DNA of 64,000 bases from SAR324 cluster bacterium (GTDB taxonomy: Bacteria > SAR324 > XYD2-FULL-50-16): positions 1 through 64,000 of the forward strand of contig JANQGX010000064.1 in NCBI GenBank assembly GCA_028282885.1. The letters run 5' to 3'. The first letter of the stretch is position 1, and each line of letters begins with the position of its first letter. The translations under genes were made by a program, and so were the position numbers. The notes below the pieces were generated by a model, which worked only from the letters and a program-made list of their open reading frames with translations, made no database searches and was not told where the DNA came from. This document shows positions 10,789-12,319 of the stretch, piece after piece.

Positions 10789-11148
10789 ATGGAAAAACCC
10801 GAAATCTGTCTCGAAAAATGCGTACACAGCGAAGCGGTGGAAAAGGTCAGGGCAAAGCAAGCCCCTTTGGACCGGATGTTTGATCTGGCGGATCTATTCA
10901 AAGCCCTGGGTGACAGCACACGGATCAGAATCCTGCTCTCCCTCATGCATGCCGAACTTTGCGTTTGTGACCTGGTACAGCTAATCGGGATGACCCAGTC
11001 CGCTATTTCCCATCAGTTGCGGGTTTTGCGAGCAGGCAAAATAGTGAAACACCGTAAGGAAGGGAAAAACGTGTTCTACAGTCTTGATGATGATCATATT
11101 CGTCAACTGCTGAGCGACGGCCTGGAACATGTCAACGAACCCGGATAG
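10789..11148 (+). CDS. ArsR/SmtB family metal-sensing repressor (ZiaR/CadC-like)
   Basis: This is a 119-residue winged-helix repressor with the recognition region GMTQSAISHQLRVLRAG (about residues 67-83). Two known metal sites of the family can be seen. The alpha3N site is CVC at 58-60 in ELCVCD, with extra cysteines at 7 and 11. The alpha5 site has exactly the SmtB spacing DxH-x10-HxxE (Asp101, His103, His114, Glu117). Having both sites resembles ZiaR and CadC, which sense Zn(II) or Cd(II)/Pb(II). It is followed after 58 bases by a Cu/Zn permease gene that it very likely derepresses when metal is in excess. Confidence 0.9.
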   Translation: MEKPEICLEKCVHSEAVEKVRAKQAPLDRMFDLADLFKALGDSTRIRILLSLMHAELCVCDLVQLIGMTQSAISHQLRVLRAGKIVKHRKEGKNVFYSLDDDHIRQLLSDGLEHVNEPG

Positions 11149-11206: not shown

Positions 11207-12319
11207 ATGATCAATTGTTATCTTATGAAACCAATCTTTGATTTTCTTATTCAAGTTCTCTATTCGTCCTGGGATGTTCTGCTGGACTCCTCCCCGTTTA
11301 TTATTTTCGGGTTTCTGGTGGCAGGACTCCTAAAGGCTTTTGTCCCCAATGATATGATAAGTCGGCATCTGGGGGGAGGTCGTTTCTCCAGCGTGGTTAA
11401 ATCCTCCCTGGTGGGAATTCCCCTCCCTCTCTGCAGTTGTGGAGTGTTACCGGCGGCAGCCGGTATGAAGGAACAGGGAGCGGGCAAGGGGGCAGTTGCC
11501 TCGTTTATGATTTCAACACCGGAGACTGGGGTGGATTCTATCGCTATTACATACGCCCTCCTGGATCCGCTGATGACGGTTATGAGACCTGTCAGTGCCT
11601 TTGTCACGTCAATCACAACCGGCTTTTTCGTCAACCTGACGGACAAGAACTCTGCAGCCGGGCCCCCTCCTGAGAGTTGTTGAAGCAAATCTTCCTCCTG
11701 CGGGTCAGGAGCTCTTCAACAAAAACCTTCTGCCAAGGATCGGGTGATCAGCGGCATGAAGTTTTCATTCGGGGATCTGCTGCAGGATATCGGCGGCTGG
11801 CTACTGATCGGAATCCTCCTGGCAGGGATTATCGATATTTCCCTTTCACCGGGGTTGATCACCGAGTATTTGGGCAATGATTTGCTGTCGATGCTGGTCA
11901 TGGTGGTTCTGGCTACCCCGCTTTATGTCTGTGCAACCGCATCCACTCCCATCGCAGCCGCACTTGTGTTAAAGGGGCTTTCTCCCGGGGCCGCCCTCGT
12001 TTTTCTGATGGCGGGACCGGCTACCAACATAGCCACGATTACTGTTGTCGCCAAGGTAATCGGGAAAAAAGCAGCCACGATTTATGTCTCTTCCATTCTC
12101 ATCTGCTCGCTGGCCATGGGAGGATTGGCAAACCTGTTTTACAGGTTTTTTGAGCTTGATATTCACACCTGGATTACAAGCAATGAAGGAGAATTAAGGG
12201 GAGTCGTAGCTTACGCATCGGCGATTTTGCTGCTTCTGCTGATTGGATACGGGTTTGTGAAGAAACTGGATCCGGCAACCGGTGGATTGCCCGGAAGATC
12301 TCATCCTCACTCCCGTTAA
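11207..12319 (+). CDS. SO_0444-type Cu/Zn efflux permease, putative selenoprotein (in-frame UGA)
   Basis: Two open stretches, 11207-11683 and 11744-12319, are in the same frame and together make one 370-residue permease of the COG0701/DUF318 type. The first half carries PLCSCGVLPAA and STPETGVDS; the second carries PLYVCATASTPIAAAL and FLMAGPATN, the paired motifs of the SO_0444 family. They are separated only by a UGA at 11681-11683 (codon 159) in a linker reading PPPESC-UGA-SKSSSCGSG, where family members have adjacent cysteines. No frame change is needed. A SECIS-like hairpin begins at the UGA, so I read it as selenocysteine. The alternative is a nonsense mutation. An ATG at 11225 is a second possible start. 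Confidence 0.75.
11677..11722 (+). promoter_or_regulatory. SECIS-like RNA hairpin at the in-frame UGA
   Basis: A 9-base stem (TTGTTGAAG at 11677-11685 with CTTCAACAA at 11714-11722) contains the UGA in its 5' arm. An inner 6-base stem (CTCCTG 11695-11700, CAGGAG 11706-11711) closes the 5-base loop CGGGT. Counting the U of UGA as 1, the loop G residues are at 22-24 and the U at 25. In the E. coli fdhF SECIS the key loop G and U are at 23 and 24. Bacterial SECIS elements have a small apical loop with a G among its first two bases about 16-37 bases downstream, which this satisfies. Folding was judged by eye. Confidence 0.7.

Follow-up and report, generated by a model that had tools for sequence, protein, structure and literature searches.

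The 64,000-nucleotide stretch of SAR324 cluster bacterium DNA analyzed here (hereafter, the window) contains a gene for an SO_0444-type permease whose frame is interrupted by one UGA, which raises the question of whether this codon ends the protein or is decoded as selenocysteine (Sec), and what a selenolate might do in a metal efflux permease. The relevant features are as follows.

10789 to 11148, plus strand: ArsR/SmtB-family metalloregulator gene, 119 aa, with C7, C11, H13, C58, and C60 (NCBIfam NF033788, 101 bits; Pfam HTH_5).
11207 to 12319, plus strand: SO_0444-family (ArsP_1) permease gene with one UGA read through (NF033936, 416.5 bits), the likely start, judged from homologue starts, being ATG 11225.
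11681 to 11683, plus strand: UGA, very likely decoded as Sec, in ESC-U-SKSSSCG of the Cys-rich linker (same-column TGA in 5/5 phylum homologues; TGA elsewhere a stop).
11695 to 11711, plus strand: predicted SECIS-type upper hairpin, stem CUCCUG/CAGGAG, apical loop CGGGU (folding and covariation).
11677 to 11722, plus strand: predicted lower helix UUGUUGAAG/CUUCAACAA (11677−11685 with 11714−11722) enclosing the UGA (folding; no counterpart seen in relatives).

The Permease and Its Reading Frame

Apart from the single TGA at 11681−11683, the frame from 11207 to 12319 is open over both permease halves. With the UGA read through, the product scores 416.5 bits in an NCBIfam profile search against NF033936 (SO_0444 family Cu/Zn efflux transporter), over the curated cutoff of 300, and 150 bits against Pfam ArsP_1, which bears out the description, given in an earlier note on this DNA, of an SO_0444-type permease in one frame with a single UGA. 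The same note placed the UGA at codon 159, which is correct when counted from ATG 11207; the N-termini of four homologues, however, match ATG 11225 better, so that the true start is probably the latter and the UGA becomes codon 153.

The core motifs of both halves (PLCSCG, P-Y-CAT/P-A, and GPATNI) are kept in the window permease, and C76, C78, C242, and G270−I275 are among the columns that are invariant over the 50 homologues compared. The AlphaFold2 model (pLDDT 88.5) consists of two well-predicted helical halves, with poor prediction at the linker around residues 150−170. A PDB sequence search with the permease gave no match, and Foldseek with the AlphaFold model (P0001) gave no PDB match at E ≤ 0.001. 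The model weakly resembles the membrane subunits of TRAP transporters (TM 0.40, probability 0.99), which perhaps reflects a distant fold relation.

Conservation of the UGA in the Host Phylum

Members of NF033936 scoring over the cutoff occur in 5 of 52 genomes of the host phylum, each with exactly one TGA, and the UGA falls in one alignment column across all five linkers (ESC-U-SKSSSCG, APT-U-GCDSSCV, VAS-U-SGKSCCG, VPC-U-SSQSSCV, and VSC-U-SNKGSCG). Amino-acid identity among the five is 62−78% before the UGA and 57−76% after it (for L025, which ends at a contig edge, only the first 81 codons downstream of the UGA were counted), with third codon positions being 49−68% different. Such protein identity on both sides of the UGA, combined with this degree of third-position change, points to purifying selection and not decay. 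Together with the presence of the invariant C242 and G270−I275, this agrees with the earlier view that the second half of the permease keeps its conserved motifs, and the alignment of homologues across the codon, which had been proposed as a check, finds the same-column UGA followed by a hairpin in all five.

Three further sequences with in-frame stops were encountered. An ArsP_1 fragment (L006, G000:C76:16680−17228; 43 bits) has one TGA and one TAA inside and is probably a decayed copy; a related permease (L027, G023:C18:59608−60540) scores 112 bits, below the NF033936 cutoff, and carries one in-frame TGA; and a sequence from a Marinilabiliales MAG (L129) has an in-frame TGA at a helix glycine position (LLI-U-LAF), which looks like sequencing error or decay rather than Sec.

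The Hairpin Downstream of the UGA

In the upper hairpin of the window gene, positions 11695−11700 pair with 11706−11711 and close the loop CGGGU at 11701−11705, the G residues of which fall at +22 to +24 and the U at +25 when the U of UGA is taken as +1; this numbering agrees exactly with the earlier note. The two-part hairpin holding the UGA that was proposed there is present in the window gene, both helices jointly reaching −15.1 kcal/mol. In relatives of this gene, no counterpart of the lower helix was seen. In the published model of the bacterial SECIS (bSECIS), the loop is 3−9 nt long, the stem 4−16 bp, a G lies within the first two loop positions, the spacing is 16−37 nt, and the MFE is ≤−7.5 (PMC13188914, Fig. 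2). A fit to such a model had also been suggested, and here the geometry agrees (loop CGGGU, 6-bp stem, G at loop position 2, spacing of 17 nt), while the energy of the upper hairpin is only borderline, from −6.8 kcal/mol for the bare stem to −7.5 kcal/mol for a 48-nt fold; a 50-nt fold that takes in the lower helix reaches −9.0 kcal/mol. The hairpins of two homologues, L025 and L146, are weaker than the −7.5 kcal/mol guideline.

At a relaxed threshold of −5 kcal/mol, a SECIS-like hairpin follows 9 of the 10 linker UGAs tested; the background is 4.6% for the other codons of these genes and 4.4% for the linker Cys codons of Cys homologues. At −7.5 kcal/mol the corresponding values are 6 of 10, 2.2%, and 3.9%. 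Covariation was assessed by an ungapped comparison counted from the UGA, which covered 20 of the 21 linker-UGA homologues in two groups. Among the 15 Desulfobacterota sequences 93% of stem cells are paired (36−63% in shifted registers), with both-sided changes at 5 of 7 pairs, and among the five window-family sequences 91% are paired (29−54% shifted), with both-sided changes at 2 of 7 pairs, namely C-G to U-A at 14−30 and C-G to G-C at 16−28. The hairpin centers of the two groups lie 1 nucleotide apart, and in 24 Cys homologues only 28−40% of stem cells are paired in any register. It has to be noted that the linker-UGA sequences are related to each other, so the compensatory changes counted here are not independent events. 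The frequency of the hairpin after linker UGAs relative to other codons and the covariation of its upper stem show that the window hairpin is more than a chance structure.

Two Candidate Sec Sites in the Wider Family

A first survey took the phylum to which a Desulfosarcinaceae MAG belongs (Thermodesulfobacteriota), and 81 of the 395 genomes covered have an NF033936 member over the cutoff. Fifteen of the 81 carry an in-frame TGA (one of them two), and in none of the over-cutoff matches of these 81 genomes is there an internal TAA or TAG. In ten of the 15 the motif is PL-U-SCG, where Sec would replace the first Cys of the transmembrane PLCSCG, in four it is a linker GCG-U-P, and one protein (L165, genome G125, G125:C25:114952−115935) has both kinds of site, PL-U-SCG and a linker ST-U-ADNHCSCG, with a predicted hairpin downstream of each, its own linker hairpin folding at −11.3 kcal/mol. 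A second survey, of the order to which one linker-Sec genome belongs, added 11 further linker sites with GCG-U followed by P or G, which brings the totals read to 21 linker sites (5 in the window family and 16 in Desulfobacterota) and 11 core sites.

Several of these proteins have features of their own. Ten core-Sec homologues from Desulfobacterota (L152, L163, and L174−L181) have strong predicted hairpins of variable geometry after the UGA, and one of them (L180, G156:C8:127850−128857) has a linker without Cys. A second SO_0444 copy in a genome that also has a linker-Sec copy (L247, G548:C1:3104788−3105756) has neither Cys nor Sec in its linker.

Close relatives of the GCG-U forms carry Cys forms of the linker (NCGC, SCGC, and GCGCP), and in Desulfobacterota the alignment of the in-frame UGA with Cys is clear (GCG-U-P versus GCGCP/NCGC). 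In the window clade the U sits in a cluster of linker Cys residues; at this place Gammaproteobacteria show SCC, and the Desulfobacterota nearest to this clade in the tree (L217, L218, and L241) show SSCC, SSCCC, and CVC, the linker alignment being loose in both comparisons. The earlier statement that family members carry adjacent Cys in the linker thus holds, as Cys homologues do carry Cys within this linker, albeit with this loose alignment for the window clade.

On a first tree, 3 or more changes are required to explain linker Sec and 6 to explain core Sec, with a single linker-Sec clade not being rejected by the AU test (p 0.87); on a larger tree, to which the order was added, the linker site takes about 10 gains or losses and the core site 7, both trees coming from quick searches and having weak deep branches. 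Some Cys forms, for instance L240 (GCGCP), fall among Sec forms. Judged from these sequences, repeated exchange of Cys and Sec within the Desulfobacterota order is likely.

Decoding of the UGA

The search for selA, selB, selC, and selD that the earlier note had recommended found all four in the host genome (7.8 Mb, 95 contigs): SelA at C93:106219−107490 (528 bits), SelB at C84:12645−14534 (368 bits), SelD at C17:35052−35969 (374 bits), and a tRNA-Sec with anticodon TCA at C91:166305−166399 (62 bits). Across the family, selB is present in 19/19 further linker-Sec genomes and also in 18/20 Cys-form genomes of the compared order, so that its presence hardly discriminates between the two forms. 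The host SelD gene (L139 in G000) itself carries one in-frame TGA, and the protein is therefore probably a selenoprotein. A scan of the window for further frames with UGA read-through yielded no other convincing candidate. The scan is insensitive, given that the permease gene itself did not pass its codon filter.

Sec is very likely inserted at UGA 11681, and other readings of the codon fare poorly against the same evidence. None of the circumstances that the earlier note named as refuting Sec was encountered. A premature in-frame stop, had it been seen in one genome, might well have pointed to a pseudogene or a sequencing error, but the codon occupies the same column in five independent genomes, the proteins being 57−78% identical both before and after it, and Desulfobacterota supply 16 more linker UGAs; the conserved UGA and hairpin refute this reading, which retains practically no probability. 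The permease might instead be split into two polypeptides that assemble together, the second being made from GTG 11744, a possible start codon in the second half. However, the stop inside over-cutoff matches is always TGA and never TAA or TAG, the hairpin covaries, and a single continuous protein is encoded in close relatives, so this arrangement, too, was rejected as very improbable. As for a general reassignment of TGA, or its reading as Trp or another amino acid without a SECIS, no supporting point was found, and this scarcely credible option was rejected because TGA is used as a normal stop in the window, where it ends 18 of the 46 long open frames (stop-to-stop, at least 200 codons from a Met), and because the genome has the Sec machinery and the gene has the hairpin.

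Proposed Role of the Linker Sec in Metal Efflux

A gap of 58 bp separates the end of the ArsR/SmtB-type gene from ATG 11207, and in 5/5 loci a homologue of the regulator is located directly upstream of the permease. Cys7, His13, Cys58, and Cys60 of the regulator (window numbering) do not vary among the five, and four of them also have Cys11. Cys7, 11, 58, and 60 are the metal ligands of the α3N site of Staphylococcus aureus CadC. In a PDB search with the regulator, SmtB ranked first and CadC (1u2w) fourth. The regulator is probably the repressor of the permease gene. Two other metal-related genes lie near the permease, one for a periplasmic binding protein (Peripla_BP_2) with a GCPNC motif (12432−13466, minus strand) and one for a DtxR-type metal repressor with an FeoA domain (13833−14501, plus strand). 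Experimentally, SO_0444 of Shewanella oneidensis is needed for growth under Zn or Cu stress, as concluded from mutant fitness and complementation (PMC3219624), and Cd and Cu induce a homologue in Nitratiruptor (PMC10092412). Within the family, Cu/Zn efflux activity is known only for SO_0444.

The metalloregulator neighbor, the role of SO_0444 in Zn and Cu stress, and the Cys residues of linker and core lead to a model of metal delivery from the linker to the core. In this model, SelB and Sec-tRNA-Sec would bind the hairpin 14 nt after UGA 11681, upon which Sec would enter the flexible Cys-rich linker joining the two transmembrane halves. The Cys-Sec...Cys cluster of the linker would then capture a soft metal, which might be Cu(I), Zn, Cd, or Hg, and hand it to the invariant core cysteines (C76/C78 of PLCSCG, and C242) for export, with the adjacent SmtB/CadC-like repressor turning the gene pair on in the presence of metal. 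What the sequences show directly is an open frame, a UGA and a covarying hairpin that are both conserved, the Sec machinery, Cys/Sec replacement, and an arsR neighbor; from these we infer the actual Sec insertion, the identity of the metal, the direction of its transfer, the side of the membrane, and the regulation. The linker is disordered in the predicted model and its Cys pattern is variable, so that a specific metal site would be putative.

Taken as a whole, the gene very probably encodes a Sec-containing SO_0444-type soft-metal efflux permease with Sec in the linker, for which the hand-over of metal and the regulation described above are proposed. Capture of a soft metal by the linker selenolate for the core CxC is itself the somewhat favored role. 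Alternatively, Sec might be inserted for a regulatory or redox purpose and not for metal binding, either making the full-length permease dependent on selenium or acting with Cys as a redox switch in the linker. Its position in a flexible linker outside the invariant transport motifs would suit this, as would the repeated gain and loss of linker Sec, which is expected for a modulating residue. Nonetheless, the residue that replaces Sec in relatives is a Cys inside clusters typical of metal-binding linkers, in other members a second Sec site takes the place of a core Cys in the invariant PLCSCG, and the neighboring gene is a metalloregulator, so that a regulatory or redox role appears rather unlikely.

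Returning to metal capture as the preferred reading, selenium seems to have been recruited repeatedly by this pump family for toxic-metal handling. On a cautiously positive estimate, one permease family took up Sec repeatedly at the transmembrane CxC and in the Cys-rich linker, sometimes at both places in one protein, as two stations of a single soft-metal path, the linker site being previously undescribed. Automatic annotation splits or drops such genes, and a metal-tolerance pump is therefore likely missed in these genomes. The repeated Cys/Sec swaps at two defined places of a transporter also offer a clean test of what a selenolate gains in metal binding or transport, a question that is usually put only to redox enzymes.

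Comparison with Known Systems

An SO_0444-family selenoprotein already has an entry in a review from 2026 (NF033936, motif UxC, one Sec, WP_014809615.1, with GenBank annotation as the source; PMC13188914), so this kind of protein is not new. Going by the sequences, the listed motif fits the transmembrane PL-U-SCG site seen in 11 Desulfobacterota proteins, and the linker U-G-C of one relative (L023) would also match it. The window protein shares with the listed one the family and the recoding principle but differs from its motif in that PLCSCG is intact and Sec is in the linker (C-U-S-K-S-S-S-C). A literature search, which excluded the sequence of WP_014809615.1, found no description of a linker Sec distinct from UxC.

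Like the founding member, SO_0444 of Shewanella oneidensis (PMC3219624), the window permease is in an operon with a metal-responsive regulator, which is a putative ZntR (MerR-type) ortholog there and of the ArsR/SmtB type here. The SaoE efflux transporter (NF040736) is related and gives the second-best NCBIfam match, the score of 207.6 bits being under the curated cutoff of 325, so that the window permease is not a SaoE. Other predicted selenoprotein components of transport systems, tabulated in the same review (PMC13188914), comprise a mercuric transport protein, a cation ATPase, YeeE/YedE, and SaoB/SaoX/SaoP; in these, Sec is likewise found at metal- or sulfur-handling positions, whereas the protein families are unrelated to that of the window permease.
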